In this document: positions 8,187 through 62,263 of the stretch, in pieces
Position numbering within the stretch: position 1 is the first letter of the stretch
How the letters are laid out: every line of letters starts with the position of its first letter
IMG/VR virus record: IMGVR_UViG_3300023210_000013
Coordinates: 1-64,000 of that record
Origin: a virus
DNA: 64,000 bases
Strand: one strand, 5' to 3'
The notes under the pieces: model-generated
Told to the model about the DNA's origin: nothing
The model's database searches: none
The model's input: only the letters and a program-made list of their open reading frames with translations
Program-made: the position numbers and the translations under genes

Positions 8187-9167
8187 ATGAACAAAGACAT
8201 TTTTAGTCCCAGGGTAAATATATTGCCCTATGAGTACCCTCAGTTATTAGCATATAAAGATGCTATTAGACATTCTTATTGGATAGATACTGAGTTTAAT
8301 TTTACAGAAGATATTCAAGACTTTAAAGTCACTATATCAAAAGAAGAAAGAGATGTCATTAAAAAGACTATGTTGGCCATTGCTCAAATAGAAGTTAATG
8401 TAAAAACTTTTTGGGCAGACCTTTATAAGAGAATGCCTATTACTGAAGTGGGTGATGTTGGGATGACATTTGCTGAATCTGAAGTAAGACATAAAGATGC
8501 TTACGCTAGGTTGCTTAGAATACTAGGACTTGAAAAAGAATTCCAAACTGTTATTGATGTACCGGCTATTGCAGGTAGACTTAAGTACTTAAAGAAGTAC
8601 CTAAATGGTACACGTTCTAAAGATAACAAGATGTATACTAAATCAGTGCTGTTATTTTCTTTATTTATAGAGCACGTAAGTTTGTTTAGTCAGTTCTTAA
8701 TCATGATGAGCTTTAACAAAGAAAAGAATGTCTTTAAAGGTATATCTAATGTTGTTGAGGCAACATCAAAAGAAGAAGATATCCACGGTAACTTTGGTGC
8801 TGAACTTATTAATATCATTAAAAAAGAAAACCCTGAGTGGTTTGATGAAGAGTTTGAGGAATTAATTTATTCTGCATGTAGAAAAGCTTATAGAGCTGAA
8901 TGTGGTATACTAGACTGGATCTTTGAACAAGGTGAACTTAGCTTTTTACCACAAAATACAATACAGCATTTTATTAAAAATAGATTTAACAACTCACTAG
9001 AAAAGATAGGTATGAAACCAATCTTTGAAGTTGACTTAGAACTATTAAAGTCCACTGAGTGGTTTGATATAGAAATACTAGGAACCAAAGAAGGAGACTT
9101 CTTTTATAAGAAGAGTGTGGATTACAACAAGAAAAGCAAGAGCATCACAGAAGATGACTTATTTTAA
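8187..9167 (+). CDS. nrdB: Ribonucleotide reductase class I, small (beta) subunit
   Basis: This is the radical-generating subunit of aerobic ribonucleotide reductase, which makes dNTPs with the alpha subunit at 9332. Metal ligands can be placed at E69, at E99 and H102 in the E-x-x-R/H helix, at E162 and at E197 and H200 (EEDIH). The radical tyrosine is Y106 (H-K-D-A-Y), four residues after H102 as in typical NrdB. The C-terminal tail ends in acidic and aromatic residues (EDDLF), the usual alpha-binding tail. At 326 residues it is a normal length. The ATG at 8187 follows an A-rich leader after a terminator. In phages these genes feed replication with nucleotides recycled from the host. The gene comes before the alpha subunit, the reverse of the common order. 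Confidence 0.92.
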   Translation: MNKDIFSPRVNILPYEYPQLLAYKDAIRHSYWIDTEFNFTEDIQDFKVTISKEERDVIKKTMLAIAQIEVNVKTFWADLYKRMPITEVGDVGMTFAESEVRHKDAYARLLRILGLEKEFQTVIDVPAIAGRLKYLKKYLNGTRSKDNKMYTKSVLLFSLFIEHVSLFSQFLIMMSFNKEKNVFKGISNVVEATSKEEDIHGNFGAELINIIKKENPEWFDEEFEELIYSACRKAYRAECGILDWIFEQGELSFLPQNTIQHFIKNRFNNSLEKIGMKPIFEVDLELLKSTEWFDIEILGTKEGDFFYKKSVDYNKKSKSITEDDLF

Positions 9168-40992: not shown

Positions 40993-43900
40993 TTAAGCGG
41001 TTTCCCTAATAATATTGCTCATTATATAGTTGGGAGAAGTTGTCCCACCTAGCCTTGCTTTCCTAAGATAAACTCTATTAAGTTTATCATATACTTTTTG
41101 AGCTTGTTTTTGCATGTTTGTATTATCATACATGCCTTTCATATAATTCTTATACATTGTTAATTCATTCACTTTACTTTTAGGCTCTCCTCCATGTGCC
41201 ATAGTTGATGGCTCAAAGTCATTAGCGGGTGTTTCCACATAAGCATAATTTTCAGGAAATAAATCTGTTCTGTATTTATTTACTTTTTTAATATAGGAAT
41301 CAGACGGTCTTACAGATCCAGGCATTCCTGTTGGTAGCACTTGACCCACTTTAAAAGCAGCATCACCTATAATAGGTAAATGTTTATAATTAGTTGAATT
41401 AATATCTAATAGTGTAGCATCATATAATTCTCTTAAAGCTTGAACTTCAGTTTCAGCATTTCTTGAATCAGCAACTCTACCTGTTTTTAAAAGTCTATTT
41501 GTTCCTTGATTATAAGCTAGAATTGACATGTTTCTAATATCTTCTTCTGCTAAATTTAATTCAGGGTAAGTGTTTGAATAATCTTTAAACGTTTCATAAT
41601 TTTTTGTAATCAAATAAGTTATTGCGTCAATTGCTTTATCATCTGACTTTCCTAAATCATCAGCACTATTAATTTGAAAATAACTCTTTGCAAAATTATC
41701 TAATGCCGTAAGTTTAGTTTTACCTATTCCTAATGAAACGTCTTTAGGTTTATAACCTTTGTAATCATAGACCATATTTTTAACATACCCCGCATCTTCC
41801 TTACTTCTTGGAACAGATGCACCTACCCCGGTTTCTGCACCAGTTATACCAACTATTGTTGACTCTAACCATTTAGGGTCTACAGAAGAATTTAATATTT
41901 CTGGTATTTTAGTTGAATTATATTTAGCTCTTTTAAATACATTTTCAAGTTGTGTAAGTCTTTCTCCTTCGTAATCACCTGATTGATATCTTAAAGATAA
42001 ATTTCTTATTGTAGATGGATCAATTTCAATATCTTCAATACCATCAACATTATAAGTTGAATTAACTTTAATATCTTCTTTAGGTCTTCTTATCCATCCA
42101 GTAACTAATTCATCATATGGTTGTTGTAAAACTGTACCATTTACATTATGTGTAATAATTGGAACACCATCAATAACATCTGATACAAATCCAGTATGTG
42201 TATTGTGTGTTTTTGAGTTTAATGTTTCTTCATGATGACTTGAACCATCCCAATATAATCCAACAATATCACCTGTTTTGTAATCACTTGCTTTTGTTTG
42301 TTTTTTTCTTTTTACTTCTTTTGTTATTCTTTTTATATCTTCTGCGGACGTAGCATTATCAAATGCTTTGTCATCATATATATTAAAAACAGATTTACTA
42401 TTTTCAACATCATTCATGTTTTCAAATATGTCCCATGCATTTTTATACTTAATACCTAAAGACTCTGTCATAACATTATTACCTTCCAATATACTACACA
42501 TTCCGGCAGCACATCTTCCATCTTTTAGTTTACTAGGTATAAAGTCAAACACTAAAGCATTTGGATCTTCTTCAGTTTTTTTTGTGTTATAAGCTTGTAA
42601 AGCTTCTTTTGTTTGTTGACCAAACTTACCATCTATACTTGAACCTTCTTTATTAAGTAGTGTAGCAGACATAAATCCTTTATCAACAAGGTCTTGTTGA
42701 ATCCTTAATACTTCTTCTTTATTATCAGGATTGTAATTTTTATAATATTTTGATATTGCTGATGGTGCTAAATTTACATCATCTATCATAGATTTGTGAG
42801 CGGCAAATGTTTTTGCTCCATAATCTCCATCTGCTCCAGTTGCTCCTATATCATATCCTTTACTTAATAAATCTTTTTGTAAAGTTTCAACTTCAGAAGG
42901 AGAAGCATTTGTCATATCTTTCCAACCTCTTGCATAATCATTTGAGCTCTTAGTAAAATCAGAAACTAAATTAGGTCTTTTATATTTTGATTTTTCTAAT
43001 CTACTTTCTTTGTCCAAATCAGCTATTACGCTGTTATACTCTTCTGGGCTAAGTGGCTCATTAAGATTTCCATCTTTTATAAAAGGTAATTGCTTCTGAG
43101 TTATAGCAGTATTATCTCTTACTACTGTTGTGTCTAACATTTGATTGTTTACATAATCAGCACCTGCTTGTTTTAAAAATTCTTGTAATTTTGAAGCTGG
43201 CTCAAATTCTGGTTTACCAAGATTTGGTATCACACGTCTAGTGGCAACTCTTGTATTATCTTGAACTGCGGTTCTCCATTCTCCATTACCATATTGAAAT
43301 GATTTATAGCCATTCTTAATACCTTCTTTTTCTGCTGCTTTTTTACTTTCTAAAAAACTAGCACGGTCACCTTCAGCTTCTACATTTTTATGACCCTGTA
43401 ACCAAAGATCTACAGGAGATAAATTACCATTTGTAAAATCAGATAACTTAGCTTTTGACTCTATTAAATTTGCAAAAAACAATGCGTATTGATCTTCTGA
43501 TGACAACTGATCAGCTGATGTAGCATTTACAATACTATCTTTTATAGTATATCCTTTTGCATCTGCAACATTTTTATATCTTTTTAATGCTGTATTAAAT
43601 GATTCACCTTCAAATTGAAATAACCCTCTACCAGGCCCACCTTGATACTGTTTAGCTTTTGGATCCATTCTTGACCACGGACTTGATTCATGAAATGCAA
43701 TTGTATCTGCTAATTGTCCCCATGTATCTTTTGTTCCACCTCTGGTTTCTACTATATAGTTTGATATATTATTATAATCTAATATTTTAGAATTATCAAC
43801 TTTGTCTTCTCCATTACCATCTTGTGCTTTTGGTATACCTCCATACTTTAATTTGCTTTTTAAAACTTGTTTGCTCATGTCCCAACCAGATTCTATTTCA

Positions 43901-45321
43901 TCTAGTTTATTAGCTATACCTTTAAAACTATTGCTATCATAAAAGTTTTCATAACCAGCATCCTTAATAAACCAGTTGTCTGTTGCACCTGTAGATGCGT
44001 GTCCACCATACGGTTGCCATAATCCTTCAGTAGTTCCTGTTTTTCCTGCTCCTTTTTTTCCAGCTAATCCACTTGATTTGTAAAATAATTGTGATTGACC
44101 ATTTGGCAATGCTACTTCTGCAATCTGTCTACCAAATTTATTTCCATGATTAATTACATTAGGTGAAATTACATCATTAGCATTAAAACCAATTTCATCT
44201 AAATGTTTTCCTTGTGATTTCATAGATGTTAAAGCATCCTGAATACCTTCTGGTGATCTACCATAGTTTGTAACTCCTCTTGACCAACTAGGTTTAACAT
44301 TATCTGCAACTTTAACTGTATTTTCTACAACTTCTTTTGCTATTGTTTTTTTCAAACCTTTTTTTAAACCTGCTTGTGTAACGTTGTTAATTAGATTCTT
44401 AGCTACACCTGCTCCTACGTATGTACTTGGATCAGTTGCTAAGTTGGTAATAAATGCACCTACAGGATTTTCTACCAATGGATTCCCATTTGCATCTTTT
44501 AATCCAGCTACATTTTTTACAGGTGTACCATTTTGATTTGTAAATGTAAATGTTTCATCATCTGATCCTGGTGTTGCAAAGCTTGGCATAGCGTTCATAA
44601 AATTAAACTCACCATCACCACGTCCTGTAAATGATTCAGTAGCCTCTGCTATAAGATTTGCAGGTATTCCCATTACACCTAATAAGTTAGATATATTAGC
44701 TGCTGGTACTTTTGCCATTTCTTTAACAAGACCCCAAACAGATTTTTCTTCTACTTCTGTACCATCTTGAGCTTTAGGTTTCCAAGAACCTTTACCAAAC
44801 TTTATTGCACTTTCTTTATCTGTTCCAAAGTCTATAACCTCACCTCTTCTTTGAGCTTCTTTATATGCTTCTTTCCAAGGTTTAGTAGACATGTCTATCC
44901 AAGTACCATCCGGGTCTTGAAATAGTGTAGGAAAAGAAAACCAATTTTTACCATCTAAAGTTTCAGTTGCCATAAGATGTGTGGACTCAGAGCCATCTCC
45001 ATTGTCCCTAACACCTTGTCTTTTTGGAACTTCATAACCTGTCTGTACCATAGGTACTTCTAACACACTATCTCCTGGAAACTGATAGTTACCACCAGGC
45101 TTCATTATTTGTTCATTACCTAAGTTGTCTCTACCATATACAGGAAAGTCTACACCTTCCATAGTAATATTACCAGATGGTATGATATTATAAGGATTGT
45201 TTACATCAGGTGAATTTCTTTTATAACCTTCTGTTGAAAACAAATTTGATACATGTGTTATGTATTCATTTGGGCCTCCGGGTAAACCTCTGCTTTCTTT
45301 ATGTTCAGTATTTTTTTTCAT
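40993..45321 (-). CDS. Multi-domain virion peptidoglycan hydrolase (1442 aa)
   Basis: This protein should open the cell wall during DNA entry. Domains in order: an N-terminal region with Q-F-P-G-D-S-V-L-E-V-P-M and the phage motif G-S-E-S-T-H-L-M-A-T-E; a lysozyme-like domain with E545 (A-F-H-E-S-S-P-W) and G-R-G-L-F-Q-F-E; two peptidoglycan-binding repeats at about 808-845 and 866-910, each with a G-D-Y-G or G-K-F-G turn; a cysteine amidase or endopeptidase of CHAP/NlpC type with C937 or C942, G-D-I-V-G-L-Y-W, H1042-T-G and H1058; and a second transglycosylase-like domain with E1163 (G-A-E-T-G-V-G) and L-A-Y-N-Q-G-T. It carries L-K-Y-G-G, M-A-H-G-G and R-L-G-G-T motifs and two PKAQDG copies. 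The gene shares one base with the muzzle gene stop. Confidence 0.75.
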   Translation of the reverse strand: MKKNTEHKESRGLPGGPNEYITHVSNLFSTEGYKRNSPDVNNPYNIIPSGNITMEGVDFPVYGRDNLGNEQIMKPGGNYQFPGDSVLEVPMVQTGYEVPKRQGVRDNGDGSESTHLMATETLDGKNWFSFPTLFQDPDGTWIDMSTKPWKEAYKEAQRRGEVIDFGTDKESAIKFGKGSWKPKAQDGTEVEEKSVWGLVKEMAKVPAANISNLLGVMGIPANLIAEATESFTGRGDGEFNFMNAMPSFATPGSDDETFTFTNQNGTPVKNVAGLKDANGNPLVENPVGAFITNLATDPSTYVGAGVAKNLINNVTQAGLKKGLKKTIAKEVVENTVKVADNVKPSWSRGVTNYGRSPEGIQDALTSMKSQGKHLDEIGFNANDVISPNVINHGNKFGRQIAEVALPNGQSQLFYKSSGLAGKKGAGKTGTTEGLWQPYGGHASTGATDNWFIKDAGYENFYDSNSFKGIANKLDEIESGWDMSKQVLKSKLKYGGIPKAQDGNGEDKVDNSKILDYNNISNYIVETRGGTKDTWGQLADTIAFHESSPWSRMDPKAKQYQGGPGRGLFQFEGESFNTALKRYKNVADAKGYTIKDSIVNATSADQLSSEDQYALFFANLIESKAKLSDFTNGNLSPVDLWLQGHKNVEAEGDRASFLESKKAAEKEGIKNGYKSFQYGNGEWRTAVQDNTRVATRRVIPNLGKPEFEPASKLQEFLKQAGADYVNNQMLDTTVVRDNTAITQKQLPFIKDGNLNEPLSPEEYNSVIADLDKESRLEKSKYKRPNLVSDFTKSSNDYARGWKDMTNASPSEVETLQKDLLSKGYDIGATGADGDYGAKTFAAHKSMIDDVNLAPSAISKYYKNYNPDNKEEVLRIQQDLVDKGFMSATLLNKEGSSIDGKFGQQTKEALQAYNTKKTEEDPNALVFDFIPSKLKDGRCAAGMCSILEGNNVMTESLGIKYKNAWDIFENMNDVENSKSVFNIYDDKAFDNATSAEDIKRITKEVKRKKQTKASDYKTGDIVGLYWDGSSHHEETLNSKTHNTHTGFVSDVIDGVPIITHNVNGTVLQQPYDELVTGWIRRPKEDIKVNSTYNVDGIEDIEIDPSTIRNLSLRYQSGDYEGERLTQLENVFKRAKYNSTKIPEILNSSVDPKWLESTIVGITGAETGVGASVPRSKEDAGYVKNMVYDYKGYKPKDVSLGIGKTKLTALDNFAKSYFQINSADDLGKSDDKAIDAITYLITKNYETFKDYSNTYPELNLAEEDIRNMSILAYNQGTNRLLKTGRVADSRNAETEVQALRELYDATLLDINSTNYKHLPIIGDAAFKVGQVLPTGMPGSVRPSDSYIKKVNKYRTDLFPENYAYVETPANDFEPSTMAHGGEPKSKVNELTMYKNYMKGMYDNTNMQKQAQKVYDKLNRVYLRKARLGGTTSPNYIMSNIIRETA

Positions 45322-48300
45322 TATCTAATGGACATATTTAATTTAGTGTTTGCTATTTTAAGAAGCATCTTTCTATCTCCAGATACATTACGTCTTAATA
45401 GTAATTTATTATAATAGTGTCTGAACTTTTTATGTTGCAATGGATCTTTAGCATAATTTAAATTAGCGGCATTAAGATCTTTTATGTAACCATTCATTTG
45501 AGTAATAAACTTACTTCTTTGAATACCTGTAAACTCACCTCTATCATCAGTAATATCCCAGAACTGATTAAATCTATACTTCTGTTCTTCTTTAGAATAT
45601 AGAATTCTAATATCATTAGTTCCTATAATAGGATATTGTAGTGCTGCAAACGGATCTTCTTTTGGTGTTAAGTCTAATTTTAATAATCCAGATACTTGTT
45701 CTGAATTATATATAATACTTTCATCAAAGTTAAAATCTAAATCATGCCATCTATCATCTCCACAAGCAAGTAGTAAATCTCCTTTATATACATAAGATTC
45801 CAATTGGTATTCAACACTTCTAATAGTGTTAACAATTTGACCTGTGTTTTCTATTACTTCTACTTCCCATGGGTAATCTACACCATAGTAATTAGAAAAT
45901 AAATCACACCTAACATTATGCCTCCATAAAGATCCTGATTCAAAACTAGGTTGAGTTGAAAATGATCCAAAATAATTACAAGTTAATGGATTAAAATTAA
46001 TATAACTTGGACTACCTGTTCCTAATACATTAGTTAAATATACATCATCACATACTCCAGTTTCAGTAGTACTAGCTTCTGGAAATGCTGGACCTGGACA
46101 ATTACATTCTACTTTTCTACAAATAGGAGGGTTTGCAACAGTACAATCTCCTTCAGATAAAGTATAATTATTATTAGAATCAGGATACACAACCTCATAA
46201 CCTTCGGGACATTCACATGTAGGAGGTGCACCACATATAGCACCAGCAATTGCAGTTGATATAACAGCTGATGTATTATTAGGTTGAGATCCATCTGCAA
46301 TCATTACAAAATCTTGCGTTGGATCATTACAAGTAATTTGATTTATAATAGCTACTGCATTTGCATTTGGGAAATTTGATGTATTACACCAAACACTAGT
46401 AACATTATACTGAGGTAGATTTTGATATTGACAACCGTTAGGAGTACCAGCTGTCCATGCAGCATCAGTCATAAAAATCATTACTCTTGTAAAACCAGGT
46501 TGTCCTAATCTATTTCCTAACTGAGAAGATGCTGTATTATTTAAAATACTATCTGCATGTGCCATACCTACTGGAATGTCAGTACCTGACGTAGGGTTTG
46601 GAGCATACCATGCATTTACAGCAGCTATATTTAAACCGGTACTTTGCATTGAAAATCCACCAGGATTAAATGATTGTGTGAAATTTGCATTTCCCCATTT
46701 TGTAAATCCTATTTGAAATGTACCATTAGCTAAACCTGCAGTTACTTCAGGACTACCTAAAAACTGAGCTACAAATTGTCTTTGTGCTGCTATGGGTGCA
46801 CCAAGTGTACTTGTAGACCAATCCATTGCTATTACAATATCTAGTGTACAATTTACTGTATTATCTACTACTGTTGCCGGTACTTCTTCTACTACTACTG
46901 TTGCTGGTTCTACTTCACTATAAATTTTTTCACACAAGTTTGTTGCAGGATTAAAAGTATATCCCGGAGGACATGTGGGTGATTCATTAGCAACTGTCTG
47001 TGTAGTTAAAAAATGATTAATACTAGGTAGTGCAAGTTCAGGATGCCAATCATGAAATGAAATCCATGCTTGTGATTTAGCATCATAAGAAACTGTCCAA
47101 GAAGCATCTTCAAAATAAAGCGGGTCACCTACTTTTATTGGTGTACCAGGACTTGCCGGTAATGTCTTATACACAAATCCATCATTAACAAAATGTACTT
47201 CTCCTCCACCTGAACCAGGTATTAAATTTTCTTTTACTTTATAATCTTTTTTCATAAAGTAAACTATATCATCATTGACATCATATATACTTTGACATCC
47301 AATTCCAATAACAGGGTTATCAGATAACTTACTAAATTCAAGTTCTGGATACTGTTTTACAAGAATAGATGGGAGGTATTTATTAAACCACCATTTCATC
47401 CCTTTATTAGAAATATTGTCAAGCTTTCCTGTGTAATGAAATATCTTACCTTGAGCTTGTGACATGTAGTATATTCCTGTAGGTGTATTTACTACAGATC
47501 TCATGCTTTCAGATGAACCATATTCATTGGATAAATCAGAGTTTGCAATATTCTGTAAAGGTTGACTAAATAGTCCACCGTCACCTATTGTAAGTTTTGT
47601 CCCTAAGTCTGTTTGCAGTTGATCTACACCCTGGAACATTACAGGAGATTGATAAGGAAATAATATAATTGCACCACTCTTACTTATAGGCTTTATTACA
47701 TTTACTTCACTTTTAAAATCTTTATAATTGTTTGGTAAAAACACTCTCCAAAAATCTTTCTTTGCTTCTTTTTGTGCTTGTAAAGAATATATAAGTCTTT
47801 TAGGATAATACTGATAGCAATTTTCTGCAACGTAAGGATCATAATCTCTAGGTTGTACATTACCAAAAGATGTAACTTGAGTTATCATTTTACTAATACT
47901 TAATGATAAATCATACTTATAAAAGTTATCTTCTTTTTGAATATCAGCATGAAATAAATCATCTGTATTTGTATAATCATAAACATCATAATGACGTTTT
48001 GCAGGAGTATCATCCCAATCTCTTTGTGAAAGATTATATTCTGATTCTACAAAAAAGTCTTGCACTCCATTAACGTGAGTATACATATAAGCATACCTCA
48101 TAGCAAAAGAAGGATTTGGATCATTAGGTAATCCTAATAAACCTTCTATAGTAGAAGGACAAGAATTACTACCTCTATCTAAATAAAATAAATCATTTGG
48201 TAATGGATCACTAGAAGAACCTAAACCTAAAGTTGCAACTTCTAAACCTAATGATGTAGTATCATATTTTCTTGTGTCCATCCAAAATCTTGGATAAGGA

Positions 48301-51300
48301 ATATTAACACGCTGTAAATAATCATATGTAAATTGATCAGGCTGGCCATTTAAAAAATCTGCAAAAATAGGCATTATATTTTTTTCAGTATATCTATTAA
48401 CATATACATCACCTCCAAATATAGGCTTTGATGTAAATGGTTGATTAGGATATTCTGGTACAATTAGTTCTGTACAGCCTTTCATTTGAATTTGTTTAAT
48501 ACCGTCAATTTGACCATATTGATTTTCAAACTCAAACTTTAATCCTCCATATCTAGCAGATATACTTTTTTTCTGTTCTTGATCAGGACTTTTTATATAA
48601 TTATCACCATAACTATTATCAGCATCTCCACCTATAGTAAATCTAGATTTGTCTATTACAGACGGGTCATTTAATTCATCCGCTGTTGCTATTGCAACCG
48701 TATCTGGTCTAAATAAATTATTTATTTTAAAACCTTGAAATTGCTGAAAAGAACTCCCAATGTAGTTGGCATTTAAATTTTTAGTTCTGAATATATCATT
48801 ACTAGAAGAAGGTGTAAAATTATTATAAAACCCGTGTGAATTATATTTAAAAGCAAAATCTTCTTCTTTTACTAAATTATATATTAAATCAATTATTTCT
48901 TGAGCTCCAATTGCAATGTTTGCTGCACCCAATGGAACACCTAAAAGTGCTCTAAATACTTTTGGTAAATTTGAACTTGATGTATTATATGAATAAGTTG
49001 TATCTTTTCTACCACCTTGTATTCCAGGTATCAACCCTTTGTTTTTATCTAGTAAATGATCTGAGTAGTTTACCCCCCAATCAGTTACACCACCATCCCA
49101 TATACTAGTAACCTGCGTTAAGTCACTAATAAGAGCATCAATTACAATATCAGTTATAGTTGTTGCTACTCCAACTCCTTCAAATACACCTAAAGCAAGA
49201 ACGTATCCGGGGTTTGGATAAGAACTACCTACACCGGCAGGACCTGCAAATCCAAAATAAGGACCTAGAGGTGGTGGAAATGGACCAAATGTTTCACCAG
49301 CATAAACAGTCCCTTTAGTACCTTGCACTTGATTAATAGCATAACCTATTCCAATAATTGCAGCAATAACAGCACCACCGTTTCTTATTAATTTATTTTG
49401 AGGATGATTTTCAGATTTTATAAAATGCCCTACAGACTTACCTGAAACTTCACCATAGATTCTAGTTTCAAAAGCATTTAAAAAAGGCTTTCTAAAATTT
49501 AACTCAGGAGAGTGAAAAGTAAAATAATCTTTTTTATATCCAGTTAAAGGCTTAAAACCAGAATTAGAAAAAACACTTTGACTCCAAGAATCACAACCAT
49601 CTGTTCTATTATTATTAGCACCATCATGGAAATATACATCAGGTCTTAAATCATTATAAGGATAGTTTGGATATAAACCTTTAGAATTACCTAAAGTTTG
49701 ACCACCTGCAGGAATATCATATTCCCTCATGTTTTTAAATATACCTTTAGCTAAAATAGATCTATGCCCTTCACGTGATCCTCTTAATATTTCATAACCA
49801 ACTATATCTGTTAAAATGTTTCCATCATTATCTAAAGGTGGTTTTATGTTTTCAAACTCTACACCAATTATTCTTATTGAGTTTCCATTGGTTGTAGATA
49901 AATGCAAATCAGAACTTAATTCTTCAGTAGGTATTTTATGGTGTCTAATATATTTTCCACATAAATCATTATCTGGTGAAACATTTCCCCAAATAGGATC
50001 AGAAGAACTATTCCAAATATCAGGTCTTGTTGCTGGATATTTTTCAGTAGATTCCCAATAACCCATGTAACCTTTAGCAATAACACTAGTTCCATCTTCT
50101 AATATTTCACTAGAGCCCGGTATAATAGTAGCTGTATTATAAACTTGAAAGTTCTTTTCTTGACTGCTTAATGTATTAGTTCCACCAGCTGTTGCTGTTT
50201 CATTTACTACTTGACCAAATTGAGTTATACCGTTTGTTGATGGAGGTCTACCTGGAATATGATAAGAGCTAGATCTATCACCTGTATTAAATATCCACCT
50301 TATAAAAAATGCATATTGTTCATCTCTCATTAAACCTGTTTTGTTACCTCCATTATAATAATAAGAAGCAGGCATTTCTGCAGAAACCCATTTAGATCTA
50401 ATTTGATTTGCTAATGGTTGATAGTTAAAATCAAATTTTTCTGTAGGTCCTTGTCTTATAAGCCAATCATTTACAATATACATTGCATCTGATTTTTCAT
50501 ATGCCGGATTCATTAAAGGAATAAGCTCTAATGGAACACTAACTAAAGATTGATCTATATAATCTATTTCAATATCTGATTGCTCAGTACTATATAATCC
50601 TAATTTTTTAGCTACGGTATTTTCTTGATTATTAGATAGTATTACTAATTCATAATAATCAAATTCTATATCTAAATTTGTTACATTTATTTTTAATGCA
50701 CCTGAATTTCCTCTGTGATCAAATAAAGATTGCACATTTGATACACCAATATAATCAGTAACTTTTTGTTCATTTACTGTGTAAGCAACAAAAGCTTGAT
50801 ATGATCCATTTCTTAATTGACCACCACTAATAGATTTTTCTATATGTACACAAGGCGTATCTAATAAAGGAGCAAGTCTAATTTTTTCACAATCTAAATC
50901 ATTTGTGTCTTCATATATAACACAATCAGCTCCTTCTTCTGATACCTCATTTTGAATATAAGGTATGTCATTTATATTTAAAGTTCTTGATGGGTTGTTA
51001 CCATCATCCCAATATATTTGCCAAGTACAGTCAAAGTTTTCTTTAGAAGCACCAACAATTAAATGTAATTTATTAAAAGATAAACACGTATCATTAACAA
51101 GTGATGTATATTCACACTTGCTATCATCAAACAATCCTATTTCAGAATTAATATTATCTGTACCAAAAAGAACCCAGCTATCCTGATATAGATGAATAGC
51201 TCCTATTATTGTGTAAGGTATATTAGCACATTCTAAGTTTGCTGGTTCATTACCAATGAGACCAACATCCCCATCTACAGAATTGTTAGCTGCATTACGC

Positions 51301-51446
51301 GCATGAAACCATTGCTCCTTACTTTGAAAAGAAGCACTCATATCTTTGCTCATGCCTTTTGTAAACATCCTGCTATCTACTGAAGATGTATTTTGAAGAC
51401 CTGGAGCCTTTGATTTAGCCTGTGTACTAGCTCTTTTTTTAGCCAT
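45321..51446 (-). CDS. Muzzle-like tail protein with VWA domain (2041 aa)
   Basis: The N-terminal 200 residues resemble the tail stabilisation or muzzle protein of crAss-like phages: K-G-M-S-K-D-M-S, then H-A-R-N-A-A-N-N-S, then G-L-I-G-N-E-P-A-N and repeated beta strands, suggesting a propeller. Most of the protein is beta-rich with Y/N/D loops, and a Gly/Ala-rich hydrophobic region lies near residue 680-760. At about 1535-1735 there is a von Willebrand A domain with metal site D1542-W-S1544-T-S1546 and a later F-M-T-D, flanked on both sides by cysteine-rich segments (C-P-P-G-Y-T-F; C-E-C-P-E-G-Y). The last 250 residues return to tail-type sequence. It lies next to the ring-protein genes. 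I infer a tail tip or muzzle that can bind the host surface in a metal-dependent way. Confidence 0.7.
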   Translation of the reverse strand: MAKKRASTQAKSKAPGLQNTSSVDSRMFTKGMSKDMSASFQSKEQWFHARNAANNSVDGDVGLIGNEPANLECANIPYTIIGAIHLYQDSWVLFGTDNINSEIGLFDDSKCEYTSLVNDTCLSFNKLHLIVGASKENFDCTWQIYWDDGNNPSRTLNINDIPYIQNEVSEEGADCVIYEDTNDLDCEKIRLAPLLDTPCVHIEKSISGGQLRNGSYQAFVAYTVNEQKVTDYIGVSNVQSLFDHRGNSGALKINVTNLDIEFDYYELVILSNNQENTVAKKLGLYSTEQSDIEIDYIDQSLVSVPLELIPLMNPAYEKSDAMYIVNDWLIRQGPTEKFDFNYQPLANQIRSKWVSAEMPASYYYNGGNKTGLMRDEQYAFFIRWIFNTGDRSSSYHIPGRPPSTNGITQFGQVVNETATAGGTNTLSSQEKNFQVYNTATIIPGSSEILEDGTSVIAKGYMGYWESTEKYPATRPDIWNSSSDPIWGNVSPDNDLCGKYIRHHKIPTEELSSDLHLSTTNGNSIRIIGVEFENIKPPLDNDGNILTDIVGYEILRGSREGHRSILAKGIFKNMREYDIPAGGQTLGNSKGLYPNYPYNDLRPDVYFHDGANNNRTDGCDSWSQSVFSNSGFKPLTGYKKDYFTFHSPELNFRKPFLNAFETRIYGEVSGKSVGHFIKSENHPQNKLIRNGGAVIAAIIGIGYAINQVQGTKGTVYAGETFGPFPPPLGPYFGFAGPAGVGSSYPNPGYVLALGVFEGVGVATTITDIVIDALISDLTQVTSIWDGGVTDWGVNYSDHLLDKNKGLIPGIQGGRKDTTYSYNTSSSNLPKVFRALLGVPLGAANIAIGAQEIIDLIYNLVKEEDFAFKYNSHGFYNNFTPSSSNDIFRTKNLNANYIGSSFQQFQGFKINNLFRPDTVAIATADELNDPSVIDKSRFTIGGDADNSYGDNYIKSPDQEQKKSISARYGGLKFEFENQYGQIDGIKQIQMKGCTELIVPEYPNQPFTSKPIFGGDVYVNRYTEKNIMPIFADFLNGQPDQFTYDYLQRVNIPYPRFWMDTRKYDTTSLGLEVATLGLGSSSDPLPNDLFYLDRGSNSCPSTIEGLLGLPNDPNPSFAMRYAYMYTHVNGVQDFFVESEYNLSQRDWDDTPAKRHYDVYDYTNTDDLFHADIQKEDNFYKYDLSLSISKMITQVTSFGNVQPRDYDPYVAENCYQYYPKRLIYSLQAQKEAKKDFWRVFLPNNYKDFKSEVNVIKPISKSGAIILFPYQSPVMFQGVDQLQTDLGTKLTIGDGGLFSQPLQNIANSDLSNEYGSSESMRSVVNTPTGIYYMSQAQGKIFHYTGKLDNISNKGMKWWFNKYLPSILVKQYPELEFSKLSDNPVIGIGCQSIYDVNDDIVYFMKKDYKVKENLIPGSGGGEVHFVNDGFVYKTLPASPGTPIKVGDPLYFEDASWTVSYDAKSQAWISFHDWHPELALPSINHFLTTQTVANESPTCPPGYTFNPATNLCEKIYSEVEPATVVVEEVPATVVDNTVNCTLDIVIAMDWSTSTLGAPIAAQRQFVAQFLGSPEVTAGLANGTFQIGFTKWGNANFTQSFNPGGFSMQSTGLNIAAVNAWYAPNPTSGTDIPVGMAHADSILNNTASSQLGNRLGQPGFTRVMIFMTDAAWTAGTPNGCQYQNLPQYNVTSVWCNTSNFPNANAVAIINQITCNDPTQDFVMIADGSQPNNTSAVISTAIAGAICGAPPTCECPEGYEVVYPDSNNNYTLSEGDCTVANPPICRKVECNCPGPAFPEASTTETGVCDDVYLTNVLGTGSPSYINFNPLTCNYFGSFSTQPSFESGSLWRHNVRCDLFSNYYGVDYPWEVEVIENTGQIVNTIRSVEYQLESYVYKGDLLLACGDDRWHDLDFNFDESIIYNSEQVSGLLKLDLTPKEDPFAALQYPIIGTNDIRILYSKEEQKYRFNQFWDITDDRGEFTGIQRSKFITQMNGYIKDLNAANLNYAKDPLQHKKFRHYYNKLLLRRNVSGDRKMLLKIANTKLNMSIR

Positions 51447-51450
51447 GGTG

Positions 51451-52332
51451 TTATCTTATTGTAGGTGTGCTTTTGAACATATTGTAATAGTTATGGTATT
51501 GTGCTTTTCTATTCACTTCCCACATTTTTTTAAGTTCAGCAAAGTCTGGTGTATTTATAAAACTTAATGCATTATTTCTAGCAGCTCTTAATCTACCCTC
51601 TATAAGGCCTAGTTGATTATTTACAGGTTCTCCTGCAAACATCATATTTTCTAGAATTCTTTGTTTTAAAGCGTACTCATAATATTCATTGCAATAAGGA
51701 TGATCTAATACCAATAAGTTACCGTCATTGTCTTCCATTGCTCCTTGGAAGTTTATATATACTTTACCAGTCTTAAAATTAGTTTTAATAAACCCATCTT
51801 TTATTTCAGCTATGTTTTGTGATCTTTGATTTAAAACCGCTGAATCACATGTTGCATCATTGACAGTTGTAATAGTTAAAGGGCTAAATGCAGTGTAAGT
51901 TCTAAACTCTGCACTTGATGTTTGATGTACTAATTTATAACCTGTCCCATCAGGACAATCTTTTATTACACACACGTCATTACAAGAAGCATCTTCACAA
52001 GGACCTGTTCTTCCTGGAGCAGGTACATAATCTACACCTACTGTTTCAACATGTGTACCAGATGGCATTGTATGTTCTATGGTATAATTTCCTGTAACAA
52101 ATGCATAATTTAAATATGCAAAGTCATGAGGTAATCTTGCTTTGTTATGTTCAACATCTAAAATAACTTCTTTAGTTCTATGTATTTTTAACCCTAAGTC
52201 ATAGTTTACTCTTGTTGCTACTTTAATTAATTGAGCTGCATCAATCATTCCTTCCAAAGCATATGTTGAAAAGTCAATTGAAACATCTTCCATCAATGAA
52301 TCAAACGTTCTATATTTATGTGATATTGCCAT
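51451..52332 (-). CDS. Tail ring/adaptor protein, crAss-like (293 aa)
   Basis: A mixed alpha-beta protein with an N-terminal helix bundle (D-F-S-T-Y-A-L-E-G-M-I-D-A-A-Q), a central beta domain and C-terminal helices ending N-Y-Y-N-M-F-K. The central domain has a cysteine-rich insertion with seven cysteines (about residues 112-162, with C-E-D-A-S-C and C-V-I-K-D-C). Its place between the muzzle-like gene and another ring-like gene, with a one-base overlap, is the reason for the ring/adaptor call (the role of P22 gp4-type or crAss ring proteins). I see no sequence motif that proves this. It is probably part of the portal-to-tail connector. Confidence 0.5.
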   Translation of the reverse strand: MAISHKYRTFDSLMEDVSIDFSTYALEGMIDAAQLIKVATRVNYDLGLKIHRTKEVILDVEHNKARLPHDFAYLNYAFVTGNYTIEHTMPSGTHVETVGVDYVPAPGRTGPCEDASCNDVCVIKDCPDGTGYKLVHQTSSAEFRTYTAFSPLTITTVNDATCDSAVLNQRSQNIAEIKDGFIKTNFKTGKVYINFQGAMEDNDGNLLVLDHPYCNEYYEYALKQRILENMMFAGEPVNNQLGLIEGRLRAARNNALSFINTPDFAELKKMWEVNRKAQYHNYYNMFKSTPTIR

Positions 52333-53003
52333 TATCTATGTAAATTAATTTTGTTATCAGAATCTTCAGAAGGAATTCTTACAGTACTCATCATTACTTG
52401 CAATACCTGACTTTCTATTTCTGCAAAAAGTGATTCTGGTATATTCATTGCCTGCTCATAACGTGGAGTGCATTCATCTTTGCTATCACAAAGCCAATCA
52501 GATATATCATCATCAAAAACTCCTTCAAGTTTTATAGCATCCCATTCTAAATCAGGTAAATATAAATACCCATCCATATACCAAAAATATTTTTGCTTAT
52601 TGTATCTGAATGAGGTTGTTTTAGTAAGTGAGGTATATGTTCCTGGTTGTGTTGCTTTAAGTTCAGTAGAGCCATCAATAGAACTTACAGTTCTTATTAA
52701 AGCTCCCCAATAACCTTCTAGCATTTTAGGAAGTTTAGTTTTTGTACGTTTTATTGTACATCCGGATTGGATGCCTGTACAATGAGCTTCTACTTTATCT
52801 ACTTCAATTAATTCTATAAAAGGAAGTGTTTTCCAAATTGCACTAAATTTTAATAACTTATTTGCGTGATCTTGTCTTCTAATTAAAAGTTGTGCAAACT
52901 TTAAAATTAAACTATATACGTATCTGTCAGTAACAAAAGCGTCCTGGGACTCTGCTTTTACCTGACCACGTACTCTTGATATAACTTCTCCTATATTTGT
53001 CAT
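52332..53003 (-). CDS. Tail ring/adaptor protein, crAss-like (223 aa)
   Basis: The N-terminus (M-T-N-I-G-E-V-I-S-R-V-R-G-Q-V-K, then F-V-T-D-R-Y-V-Y-S-L-I-L-K-F-A-Q-L-L) matches the style of a conserved tail-connector protein of crAss-like phages. A beta domain with several W and Y residues follows, and a C-terminal helix (P-E-S-L-F-A-E-I-E-S-Q-V-L-Q-V-M-M) closes the protein. It overlaps the 293-residue gene by one base and follows the 188-residue gene after five bases, so the three form a cassette. Function as a ring around the portal or tail hub is inferred from this context. Confidence 0.55.
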   Translation of the reverse strand: MTNIGEVISRVRGQVKAESQDAFVTDRYVYSLILKFAQLLIRRQDHANKLLKFSAIWKTLPFIELIEVDKVEAHCTGIQSGCTIKRTKTKLPKMLEGYWGALIRTVSSIDGSTELKATQPGTYTSLTKTTSFRYNKQKYFWYMDGYLYLPDLEWDAIKLEGVFDDDISDWLCDSKDECTPRYEQAMNIPESLFAEIESQVLQVMMSTVRIPSEDSDNKINLHR

Positions 53004-55562: not shown

Positions 55563-57245
55563 TTAAGGTTGAGGTAGACATATTTGTTCAAGAGTTACTG
55601 TTACACCTGGTACAGGTGTGTAAGCACGCGCACATATAGTTATAACCGGTCTTACATCTGGTTCAGCACTAAATAATATAGTTTGGTCAGGAAATCCGTC
55701 ACAATTAACATATTGAAATGCTGTTGATTGGTTTGCTATTCCTTCAACTCTATATTGATTACATATTTGTGGTGTTTCTGCTTGAGCTGTTTCAAAAGGA
55801 ACATCATCACAATACGTTGTAAACCCATTTAAGTTTATTACAAGTTTAACTACATAACTTGTTTCAGCAGATAAGCCCGTTGCATTAAAGCTTACAACAG
55901 CACCTGGGTTATTTCTAACTTCAGTGAATGCTATTGTTTGCGGTAAAGAAACTGTCATAACATATAAACTATATGTTGCTGTTGTTCCTAAATTATTTGT
56001 AAATGCTACCGTTGCTGTTGAATCTGTTATAGAACTAACACCTATATCTGAAGGGCAATTAGATGGGCTAGATAGAGTTTTACTAATACTGTCACTACAC
56101 TGGTTAGTACCATCTGTTGCACAAAATGCAACTTGCGTTGTAAATCCTTGAAATTTATTAAGTGATGCCAAAGATACTACCACAGGTGATCCTGATTGAG
56201 CAATACTTATATCTGTAGTAGTTGATGTAGATCCACCAATACCATCTGTTATTGTAAGAGTTGTAAAACCATTACAATCACTATATGCTGGTGGTATGTT
56301 ACATCCTGAAAAATTAAAAGAAATAGATGATGCATTTCCTGTAGCATCTGTATTAAGAGTTGCTGAATAAGCAAATGTAATATCATCACACCCACTTCCA
56401 CAACAAGTTGTTTGTATTGATTCTATTGCAGCATACATATCACATACTATAGCCCATAAGTTACCATGAGATTGAGCAAGTGTTGATGGGTTATTAACCC
56501 AACTACCAGCTGAACCGTAAGTAGCACTACTTGATAACATTCCTGTTGATCCAGTTATACAACTTTGATTGATTGCTAAACCTATTAAGGCAGGACTACC
56601 AACTGCATTTTCTAAATTACATAATTTAGATTCAACTTCTGATAACAAAGCTGTTACAGCCATTGATAAACCAGGATTGATACATTGGGATATAAGACTT
56701 CCAGATCCACCGCCTCCTGCCGGAGTACATGATCCATCTGTTAAAACACAATTTTCTAATGTAATTAATCTTGTTTCATGATTATTAATAGTAACATTAA
56801 TTAAATTAATACTATCTAATATATCACAAATTTTTCCAGCTAGATACGCTGCATATAAATCTAATCTTAAAGCTGTTATTTGTTGAACTCCTACAGTATA
56901 ATATAAACATATTGGTAAATCTATAGTAGGTAAAACATACGCTGGTTTTTCAGTAGTATTACATATTTTATCAATAATTAACTGTAAAGTATCTGAGAGT
57001 TTTTTTGGAGCTTCTTGTCCTCCAGGTAATACACATTTTAAATCAAGACCTGAAAGATCAGGTTCTCCTGCAACTGAATCTATAATTTTACAAAGCTCTT
57101 CAGCAAGCTTTGCAATAACTTCACTTACACTGTCACCATTGCATATGTCTATACACGGTAGATCCGGACCTTGCCAGATGACACAATTTGAAGATATGTT
57201 AGAGCACGGTGTTGTGCTTCCATTATTCGTTGGTATCATAAACAT
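55563..57245 (-). CDS. Cys-rich virion surface protein with Fn3-like domain (560 aa)
   Basis: The N-terminus carries a motif seen in Bacteroidetes phages (C-V-I-W-Q-G-P-D-L-P-C, then C-N-G-D-S-V-S-E-V-I-A-K-L-A). The first 330 residues are helical with about twenty cysteines in spaced pairs. The C-terminal part has beta domains, including a fibronectin III-like one at about 390-495 (STATVAFTNNLG, VSFNATGLSAETSYVVKLV). The helical part may form a trimeric shaft and the beta part the tip. ATGs stand at 57245 and 57239; the first lies in the arm of a 13-bp inverted repeat. A full promoter-motif copy is in the gap upstream, so this gene and the 185-residue one form a unit. Confidence 0.65.
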   Translation of the reverse strand: MFMIPTNNGSTTPCSNISSNCVIWQGPDLPCIDICNGDSVSEVIAKLAEELCKIIDSVAGEPDLSGLDLKCVLPGGQEAPKKLSDTLQLIIDKICNTTEKPAYVLPTIDLPICLYYTVGVQQITALRLDLYAAYLAGKICDILDSINLINVTINNHETRLITLENCVLTDGSCTPAGGGGSGSLISQCINPGLSMAVTALLSEVESKLCNLENAVGSPALIGLAINQSCITGSTGMLSSSATYGSAGSWVNNPSTLAQSHGNLWAIVCDMYAAIESIQTTCCGSGCDDITFAYSATLNTDATGNASSISFNFSGCNIPPAYSDCNGFTTLTITDGIGGSTSTTTDISIAQSGSPVVVSLASLNKFQGFTTQVAFCATDGTNQCSDSISKTLSSPSNCPSDIGVSSITDSTATVAFTNNLGTTATYSLYVMTVSLPQTIAFTEVRNNPGAVVSFNATGLSAETSYVVKLVINLNGFTTYCDDVPFETAQAETPQICNQYRVEGIANQSTAFQYVNCDGFPDQTILFSAEPDVRPVITICARAYTPVPGVTVTLEQICLPQP

Positions 57246-57703: not shown

Positions 57704-58894
57704 CTATCTAGGTACCATTTTTTGCATGTAAATAGTCAAACCATTTTCTAATTCAAATGCCATAGTACCAAACTTCTCATCAAAATAAGCATTTTTAACT
57801 CCTTCCATACTACCACCATCTGCACCTGCAGGACCTGCCGGTCCCGGTGCTCCTGCAGTACCTGTATTACCTTTTGGACCTGTTGATCCAGCGGGCCCTC
57901 TAGCTCCTGCTGCCCCGGTATTACCTTTAGCTCCAGCCGCACCAGCTGCTCCAGTAAGCCCTCTTGCACCGGCTGCTCCTGCAGCACCAGTATTACCTTT
58001 AGCTCCAGCTGCTCCAGCCGCACCAGCTGCTCCTGTTAGTCCTCTAGGTCCTTGTAAATTTGTAGCTTCTCCTACCCATATACCTTTACTATCAATTACT
58101 GTTGTACCTGCTATAGCTAGAAAACCTACATCAGCTACATTTTTTAATTTTAATCTACCGTTTGTAGTTAATGACATTGCTCCATCATTATTTCCTTGAC
58201 CTTCATATTTCCAAACCCATCCTCGGTCTGCATCATTATTCATTTGAAATACTGTAGCATAATCATTTAAATAACCATAAGATTGACCAGATACCATACC
58301 AAGACCATAAGTAGTTGAATTACCCCAGAATCTATATTTACTTGAATTATCACCTGAATTAGTATAGTGACTTGCTCCACCATTTGGTCCGGCTGGACCT
58401 ACTGCACCAGCATCACCTTTGGCTCCAGCTGCTCCGGCTGCACCTGCAGAACCGGCAGGCCCTCTAGCACCAGCTGCCCCAGCTGTCCCGGCTGCTCCTG
58501 TAAGTCCTCTTGCTCCTGCTGAACCCGCGTCTCCTTTTGCACCTGCGGCTCCAGCGTCTCCCTTAGCACCTGCTGGTCCTCTTGCACCAGCTGATCCGTT
58601 AGTACCGTCTGTTCCTGCAGGTCCTCTATCACCTTTAGCACCCGCTGCTCCATCTGCCCCATTTGAACCATCTGTTCCTGCGGGACCTCTTGCTCCATCA
58701 GCTCCGTCACTACCATTAGTTCCATTAGTCCCGTCAGCACCTCTTGCACCACCGTCACCCTTTGGACCTGTTAATCCTACACCCCCGGTATTTCCTTTTG
58801 GGCCTACAAATTGAGGAAAATTAGTAGTATTAAAGTTTCCTGTGTGTAATGCTTCATTACCACCAATTGTTGTTCCTTGTTTTAAATCTGCCAT
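57704..58894 (-). CDS. Collagen-like tail fibre protein (396 aa)
   Basis: The N-terminus (M-A-D-L-K-Q-G-T-T-I-G-G-N-E-A-L-H-T-G-N) is a motif common at the start of phage adhesins. Two blocks of Gly-X-Y triplets follow, about 31-170 and 284-360, dominated by GPAG, GAAG, GAKGD and GARG. They should form collagen-like triple helices. Between them lies a globular beta domain of about 110 residues (YRFWGNSTTYGLGM, GWVWKYEG) and at the end a short cap. The stop is TAG. Such fibres extend from the tail or capsid and often bear the receptor-binding part. The antisense frame also stays open through the triplets but is only a shadow. Confidence 0.8.
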   Translation of the reverse strand: MADLKQGTTIGGNEALHTGNFNTTNFPQFVGPKGNTGGVGLTGPKGDGGARGADGTNGTNGSDGADGARGPAGTDGSNGADGAAGAKGDRGPAGTDGTNGSAGARGPAGAKGDAGAAGAKGDAGSAGARGLTGAAGTAGAAGARGPAGSAGAAGAAGAKGDAGAVGPAGPNGGASHYTNSGDNSSKYRFWGNSTTYGLGMVSGQSYGYLNDYATVFQMNNDADRGWVWKYEGQGNNDGAMSLTTNGRLKLKNVADVGFLAIAGTTVIDSKGIWVGEATNLQGPRGLTGAAGAAGAAGAKGNTGAAGAAGARGLTGAAGAAGAKGNTGAAGARGPAGSTGPKGNTGTAGAPGPAGPAGADGGSMEGVKNAYFDEKFGTMAFELENGLTIYMQKMVPR

Positions 58895-60856: not shown

Positions 60857-62263
60857 TTATACTATAAATCTCATTGTTGTTCCATCATATGTAATAACTG
60901 ATCCATTAATACCTAATGATGTACCGTCAAATGTTAAGTTTGCTTCCCCATTAACTGTTGTTCCACCTGTAGCTGTTATTACTCTATTGTTACTATTATT
61001 TAAAACATCTAAAGTAGGTCCTGTTGCACCGTCAGTTCCGTCAGTCCCATTGGTACCGTTAGTTCCATTAGTTCCGTTTGTTCCATCAGTACCATCAGTA
61101 CCATCAACACCAGGATCACCTTTAGCCCCAGGGTCACCCTTGGCTCCTGGATCACCTTTTTCACCGGGCTCTCCTTTTTCACCAGGATCCCCTTTAGCTC
61201 CGGGATCTCCATTAGTACCATCAGTACCATTGGTGCCATCTACTCCGTTAGTTCCATTGGTTCCATTGGTTCCGTCTGATCCATTTGTTCCTGGATCACC
61301 ATCAACCCCATCAACCCCATTGGTTCCATCACTTCCATCTGTTCCGTTGGTACCATTTGTACCATTTGTACCATCTGTACCCGGATTACCTTTGTCTCCT
61401 TTAGGTCCTGTATTCCAAGAACATGCACCTGAATCTGAGTTATAAGTTGAATCACCGCCAGGAAGTATTATAACACCAGGCATCCATTTTAAAGATCCCG
61501 TGTCTGCATTATGTTGAGCAATAAGTAACCAATTTTCATTAGGTATAACACTTGAACCATTATAATCAAGAACATGCAATGTACCTGATTGATAATCTTC
61601 ACCGTATTTTTGTATCCAATATAATCCCCACCATCCTGGAACGTCAATTCCTGTATTAGCGGGTATATCTATGTGACCATTACTACTTAAGTTTTTACTT
61701 ACAGGTATACAGATAATCCTAGATGTCCACTTTAATACACCGTTTTTCCAAGTAACAGTACCACCACCACTCATAGAGTAGTTAGCATGTGCACCTTCAA
61801 ATACAGTTGTTAAATCTTGATCAACTGTTGCACCTGCACTAATACCATCTAATTTTGTTTTTAATGCTGCTGTAAAGTTCTTTGTGGTTAATCCACCGTC
61901 ACCTACAGAATATGTTGTGTCTTTATCTGATGTTGTAACCGTTGATGTTGTATCATCTGCATGAGTAAATGTAATTGTATCATTACTAACTGATGCTGAT
62001 TTAATTGGGTTTACACTAGCATCTAATTTATTACCAATGCTGGTAGATATAGTTGTAGAAAAATTAGGATCATCACCTAATGCAGCTGCCAATTCATTTA
62101 ATGTATCTAATGTAACAGGTGCGGAATTAACTAAGTTTGTTATAGATGTTGTTACAAATTCTTTTGTAGCAACAGTTTTACCCAAGTGAGTCATTACATC
62201 AGTAGATGCAATCTGTTCTCCGCTTATGGTTAATTCTCTTTTAGATGGTGTAGTTGTTGCCAT
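60857..62263 (-). CDS. Collagen-like tail fibre protein (468 aa)
   Basis: The N-terminal part has classic phage fibre motifs: L-D-T-L-N-E-L-A-A-A-L-G-D-D-P-N-F, then D-K-D-T-T-Y-S-V-G-D-G-G-L-T with K-T-K-L-D-G-I-S-A-G-A-T. A beta domain of about 110 residues follows (W-W-G-L-Y-W-I-Q-K-Y-G). At about 285-420 there are Gly-X-Y triplets of a different type from the other collagen fibre: GTNGTDG, GVDG, GDPG, GEKGEPG, encoded by near-perfect 9-base repeats. A short beta cap ends it. The T/N/D-rich triplets lack proline in many units, so the helix may be looser than in the GPAG type. It overlaps the 571-residue gene stop by one base. Confidence 0.78.
   Translation of the reverse strand: MATTTPSKRELTISGEQIASTDVMTHLGKTVATKEFVTTSITNLVNSAPVTLDTLNELAAALGDDPNFSTTISTSIGNKLDASVNPIKSASVSNDTITFTHADDTTSTVTTSDKDTTYSVGDGGLTTKNFTAALKTKLDGISAGATVDQDLTTVFEGAHANYSMSGGGTVTWKNGVLKWTSRIICIPVSKNLSSNGHIDIPANTGIDVPGWWGLYWIQKYGEDYQSGTLHVLDYNGSSVIPNENWLLIAQHNADTGSLKWMPGVIILPGGDSTYNSDSGACSWNTGPKGDKGNPGTDGTNGTNGTNGTDGSDGTNGVDGVDGDPGTNGSDGTNGTNGTNGVDGTNGTDGTNGDPGAKGDPGEKGEPGEKGDPGAKGDPGAKGDPGVDGTDGTDGTNGTNGTNGTNGTDGTDGATGPTLDVLNNSNNRVITATGGTTVNGEANLTFDGTSLGINGSVITYDGTTMRFIV

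Follow-up and report, generated by a model that had tools for sequence, protein, structure and literature searches.

The muzzle gene and its cassette

The window analysed here, a stretch of 64,000 nucleotides, covers positions 1 to 64,000 of the IMG/VR virus record IMGVR_UViG_3300023210_000013 (115,581 bases) and carries a crassviral muzzle protein gene interrupted by a cassette with a predicted von Willebrand A (VWA) domain. The muzzle open reading frame (ORF) is intact and directly follows the genes for tail ring proteins 1 and 2 (Table 1). Its product scores 95.6 bits against PF25731 (Pfam cut-off 27), in keeping with the first-pass annotation, made from the sequence alone, which had called the protein muzzle-like outside the VWA domain and had seen tail sequence resume beyond it. 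The C-terminal domain PF25729, present in gp44 of crAss001, was not found by Pfam in the window muzzle; despite this, the downstream part of the protein still aligns with other muzzles.

Cassette anatomy: the insert consists of a VWA core held between two cysteine modules. The N-terminal module carries the motif CPPGYTF...C at residues 1492–1505, and the core of the C-terminal module spans residues 1744–1784; these are the short cysteine segments that had been proposed to flank the domain, and their cysteines presumably pair in disulfides. An insertion of residues ~1505–1790 had been suggested, to be checked by alignment with relatives; the alignment bears out the insertion and gives it a wider extent, ~1486–1836. 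With the C-terminal cysteine module as query, 80 viral loci and one contig from a metagenome-assembled genome were retrieved, some of them contigs already among the relatives described below, and the module lies inside a muzzle ORF in 81 of 81. It thus behaves as a frame dedicated to the cassette. The same single genome scan served as the search for a bacterial source: the sole match in a bacterial bin, a 6.3-kb contig binned as Campylobacteraceae, carries a muzzle ORF of its own and is probably misbinned phage.

Table 1. Features of the muzzle locus in the window (residues refer to the muzzle protein)
Feature	Residues	Position	Strand	Basis
Crassviral muzzle protein gene	2041 residues in all	45321..51446	-	PF25731, E 3.1e-27; PHROG virion structural proteins
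Inserted cassette	~1486–1836	45939..46991	-	Nothing at this site in 10 of 78 relatives, nor in four deposited phages
N-terminal cysteine module	1486–1512 (C1492, C1505)	46911..46991	-	Both cysteines invariant in cassette alignments
VWA domain (predicted)	1532–1737	46236..46853	-	AlphaFold2; VIA-align Z 20.5
MIDAS motif 1, D-W-S-T-S	1542–1546	46809..46823	-	In 45 sequences D and the first S never vary and the second S is at least 90% conserved
MIDAS threonine (SGTDI)	T1622	46581..46583	-	At least 90% conserved
MIDAS aspartate (FMTD, 1658–1661)	D1661	46464..46466	-	At least 90% conserved
C-terminal cysteine module	1738–1836	45939..46235	-	All 81 further loci with the module are muzzle ORFs
C-terminal cysteine module core	1744–1784	46095..46217	-	CECPEGY...PPICRKVECNCP
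Muzzle sequence resuming past the insert	1837–2041	45324..45938	-	Aligned across empty and filled relatives
Second insertion slot, no cassette in the window	~1406–1436	47139..47231	-	Filled in L043, L045, L074, L075, L078
Crassvirus tail ring protein 1		51451..52332	-	PF24228, E 1.9e-8
Crassvirus tail ring protein 2		52332..53003	-	PF25702, E 2.8e-17

VWA fold: the window cassette matches the Pfam VWA model at E 0.0022 and 18.7 bits, short of the cut-off of 23.8. VWA models match 17–18 of 57 related cassettes (best E 8.9e-8), and some of these exceed the cut-off, for example G021 (33.3 bits) and G010 (24.7 bits). A phmmer search of the Protein Data Bank (PDB) with the full window muzzle gave no match; a profile of 45 relatives matches solved VWA proteins among the PDB sequences, led by mussel PTMP1 (E 3.7e-6) and followed by collagen VI and integrin alpha-1. 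Residues 1440–1900 were modelled with AlphaFold2 using the alignment of these 45 relatives, and the predicted local distance difference test score (pLDDT) is ~90 across most of the insert, with a predicted template-modelling score of 0.54; the muzzle flanks score low, the remainder of the protein being absent from the model. Foldseek retrieves 238 PDB chains at E ≤0.001 with this model, and VIA-align superposes its VWA part on the VWA domain of CMG2 with Z 20.5 and a root-mean-square deviation of 2.2 over 175 residues, on the pilus-tip VWA domain of Mfa5 with Z 20.3 and on integrin I domains with Z 19–20. The predicted fold of the insert is clearly VWA and not some other fold.

Metal site: the first-pass annotation had read D-W-S-T-S and the later F-M-T-D as an intact site of the metal-ion-dependent adhesion site (MIDAS) type. 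Both motifs are present, and T1622, which it had missed, completes the set of D1542, S1544, S1546, T1622 and D1661. Among 45 aligned VWA-type muzzles, D1542 and S1544 never vary and each of the remaining three residues is at least 90% conserved, against a mean column identity of 33%; the match to the MIDAS motif is therefore beyond chance. Across 59 non-redundant domains all five residues are kept in 46, and S1546, D1542 and S1544 rank 4, 6 and 7 for conservation among 205 columns. Some of the exceptions are probably misalignments around T1622, where loop length is variable.

Occupancy and exchange of the insertion site

An IMG/VR scan with the whole muzzle protein yielded 78 relatives with both muzzle flanks in common and varied sequence between them, and cassette types were assigned to them by reading and with profiles built in this analysis. 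The site holds a VWA domain in 53 relatives and is empty in ten. The muzzle also runs uninterrupted through the insertion point in four deposited phages, Leptolyngbya phage Lbo-JY46, csAssE-Sib, Cellulophaga phi4:1 and Flavobacterium Fpv1, so the domain is not a fixed part of every relative. Between these states lie a site with the first cysteine module only (L066), sites with both modules and no core (L019, L030, L067) and sites with a decayed VWA domain (L026, L031). A PA14-like core occupies the site in L022, L025, L055 and L077, and tandem domains occur in L057 (PA14-like plus decayed VWA) and L068 (VWA plus decayed VWA). The PA14-like assignment draws on a Pfam PA14 match in L057 (E 0.0044) and on a profile match to a PA14 domain in the PDB (E 0.0084). 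Other material fills the site in L027, L042 and L045; in the first two, a core of ~400 residues with no recognised domain lies between the cysteine modules. The cassette has no match among 50,697 phage records. PA14-like modules were also seen in large ORFs of other phages (L171, L172, L174) whose starts are unlike muzzle, and the L171 ORF has no PHROG match.

Cassette history: a backbone tree was built without the insert; its root is uncertain and long branches meet among its distant rows. The window muzzle groups with the VWA muzzles L018 and L044, beside six empty ones. VWA is the majority state on this tree, which requires at least 11 changes of cassette type and at least two changes between empty and filled. 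A single early gain followed by loss next to the window would be a simple reading, the distant phages being empty, and two independent gains offer an alternative history. The cassette is probably old and has been repeatedly lost or swapped, so the idea of an inserted cassette stands and a recent acquisition by the window phage is improbable. One loss is preserved at base resolution. On the two sides of the core, the DNA of L019 matches that of L076 at 91.5% and 88.4% identity; where L076 has the 672 nucleotides of the VWA core, L019 has nine, with both cysteine modules staying in frame. The L019 lineage has lost precisely the VWA core, with no shift of frame.

Allele exchange: the muzzle genes of L012 and L020 are 86–100% identical per 90-base segment, mostly 97–100%, and their identity falls to ~59–79% at residues ~1561 to ~1885; elsewhere in the aligned 16 kb it is 92–100% per 300 bases. 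At the protein level their backbones are 97–98% identical and their VWA domains 59%. L012 and L013 are 87% identical in the VWA domain and 85% in the backbone, and L048 and L020 show the reverse of the first pair, with 74% identical backbones and 90% identical VWA domains. L047 and L048 likewise diverge in the latter half of the VWA domain, and the allele differences include insertions and deletions. Since near-identical backbones carry unlike VWA domains and vice versa, VWA alleles recombine between lineages, with break points near the cysteine modules. An assembly chimera is an unlikely cause, the shared alleles being 87–92% identical rather than copies and lying on separate contigs. A diversity-generating retroelement is likewise an unlikely source of the variation: neither the window record nor 28 of 29 records has a match to the reverse transcriptase model RVT_1, and one record does. 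In ten close pairs the ratio of nonsynonymous to synonymous substitution rates (dN/dS) is 0.21–0.54 in the VWA domain against 0.08–0.20 in the backbone; in one of these pairs the two values nearly coincide. Outside the preserved metal site the VWA sequence changes quickly, a pattern that by itself is no proof of positive selection.

Position on the muzzle and known counterparts

The insertion site was placed on gp44 of crAss001 (PDB 7qok, 7qol, 8ckb; PMC10172136) through Pfam positions and the C-terminal alignment. Gp44 belongs to the same PF25731 family and holds the same place in the tail cluster; it differs in its length of 1371 residues and in having a short turn, near residue 1225 (SEFYAFKDG/KMWEQF), where the window muzzle has the cassette. 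Insertions in muzzle proteins have been noted before, and length variation was assigned to the crass and IG2 regions (PMC10172136). The window site maps downstream of both, and no VWA cassette is described for muzzles in that paper.

Second slot: ~50 residues upstream of the first site lies a second slot that accepts similar cassettes in relatives and corresponds in gp44 to a turn ~35 residues earlier than the first (DVYFTYKDH/CLCYSE). In L043 and L078 it carries another cysteine module and VWA domain, with 25.5 bits in L043, above the Pfam cut-off; in L074 (L074:12429-14981) it carries a metallopeptidase domain, Reprolysin_5 (28.2 bits against 27, HELGHVIGAKHEH). From their strand pattern, both slots look like the same type of turn in successive propeller blades. 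The gp44 propeller is seven-bladed, and its IG2 region, residues 318–1021, is inserted in blade 3 (PMC10172136), seemingly at such a turn too. If so, both slots would lie on the distal, cell-facing side of the muzzle.

The integrin alpha-chain I domain is a VWA domain with a MIDAS inserted in a loop of a seven-bladed propeller, and the muzzle cassette would repeat this arrangement. The muzzle differs in being a hexameric phage protein, in its cysteine-module frame and in the position of the blade, and the likeness is drawn as an analogy with no descent claimed. The VWA fold is also shared with the aforementioned Mfa5 of Porphyromonas gingivalis (PDB 6tnj) and with LapA of Pseudomonas fluorescens (9no5; Foldseek E 6e-7), which differ as bacterial cell-surface proteins with ~15% sequence identity. 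Haloarchaeal tailed viruses encode stand-alone VWA-MIDAS proteins, with genes beside those for CobT or MoxR-like AAA ATPases (PMC7911831, PMC8651126); these share the VWA fold and MIDAS but are separate genes rather than parts of a tail protein. Diversification of the crassvirus tail has been described for BACON domains and for retroelement-diversified tail proteins (PMC10136315, PMC12386605). Those are likewise variable binding domains at the tail, but their variation lies in fibres or spikes, whereas here the nozzle varies, and does so by recombination. Modular receptor-binding domains are known in phages, and what seems new here is the nozzle location, the conserved cysteine scaffold and the allele exchange. 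The literature searched holds no prior report of a VWA domain in a crassvirus muzzle, which is weak evidence of novelty, as preprints and most subscription journals lay outside its coverage.

Neighbouring genes: the gene after the muzzle gene (window 40993–45321, minus strand) has a peptidoglycan-binding domain and varies from 1100 to 2057 residues across close relatives. Two collagen-repeat fibre genes (57704–58894 and 60857–62263, minus strand) are present in only five of 22 related records. A tail-region gene upstream of the muzzle gene (55563–57245, minus strand) has its own terminal VWA domain, with a DYTxS-type MIDAS, in ~39 related loci and not in the window; examples are L029:1588-3792, L076 from 1500 and L015 from 1729, and its occurrence is independent of the muzzle cassette. 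In L065 a stop codon at 8613–8615 splits the muzzle ORF; near-identical relatives lack the stop, which may be an error or a real mutation.

Function of the cassette

Muzzles are hexamers whose distal part is believed to touch the cell and trigger gate opening (PMC10172136). Because the domain is dispensable and exchangeable, has a conserved metal site and sits in this protein, we regard the cassette as probably a receptor-binding module of a crassvirus nozzle, open to exchange and dependent on a metal. The two cysteine modules would anchor it in a turn of the beta-propeller and hold the VWA domain outward, so that a hexameric muzzle would display six copies. Each VWA domain would, most likely, use a divalent metal at the MIDAS to bind a protein or glycan on the host surface. 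Such binding would help the nozzle to dock and add to host specificity, and may also form part of the contact that opens the gate. Within populations, specificity would shift when VWA alleles recombine across lineages or when the core is replaced by another binding-type domain. Metal-mediated binding of a host surface molecule had been proposed from the motif; allele exchange, PA14-like replacement and raised dN/dS are better grounds for it, although the PA14-like replacement supports a binding role weakly. In a bolder and rather unlikely version the nozzle would work like an integrin head, the VWA domain sensing the final receptor, movement through the cysteine modules opening the ejection gate, and specificity being traded as cassettes.

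VWA domains frequently act as protein–protein interaction modules, and the published viral VWA proteins are adaptors of AAA ATPases (PMC7911831), so the domain might instead hold another virion protein (a fibre, a cargo protein or an adjacent subunit of the muzzle) and serve assembly or particle stability rather than host binding. We judge this unlikely: muzzles without VWA have the same neighbouring genes in eight related loci, where no gene within ~8 kb of the muzzle tracks the presence of the cassette, and VWA alleles move across lineages while the flanking genes stay unchanged. Nor do the phages' own collagen-like fibres track the cassette; they were also considered as the VWA ligand and set aside for lack of co-occurrence, most VWA phages having none. 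The location of the cassette, in a propeller turn of the gate-bearing protein, together with the general observation that integrin I domains pass binding on to their propeller, would also fit a sensor or trigger, in which a ligand or metal at the VWA domain alters the propeller and opens the gate while specificity comes mainly from the fibres. Many muzzles do without the cassette, however, and a purely triggering role would not call for alleles to be exchanged rapidly, which makes this account improbable. Were the cassette a passenger, selfish or neutral, with no role in infection, its loss or decay in several lineages could be explained, but the strong conservation of the MIDAS residues and cysteines and a dN/dS well under 1 leave that reading very little room.

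Several points weigh against the receptor-binding module itself. The window's own VWA domain falls under the Pfam cut-off, and some lineages lack VWA altogether, so that infection in general does not depend on it. The VWA dN/dS is below 1 in every pair. The PA14 assignments are weak, neither match being firm, and AlphaFold2 gave a PA14-like cassette a pLDDT of 46, a model that was not used. Placement on the propeller comes from sequence alignment rather than from a whole-muzzle model, and we infer metal binding, the host ligand, the outward orientation and any gating role of the VWA domain.

For crassviruses, the choice of cell contact and the trigger for ejection are commonly credited to fibres and spikes. 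The muzzle cassette suggests that the nozzle itself may help to pick the bacterial host, through a slot that is framed by conserved cysteine modules and takes different binding-type domains. Natural phage pairs that differ mainly in the VWA domain make recognition by the muzzle directly testable.

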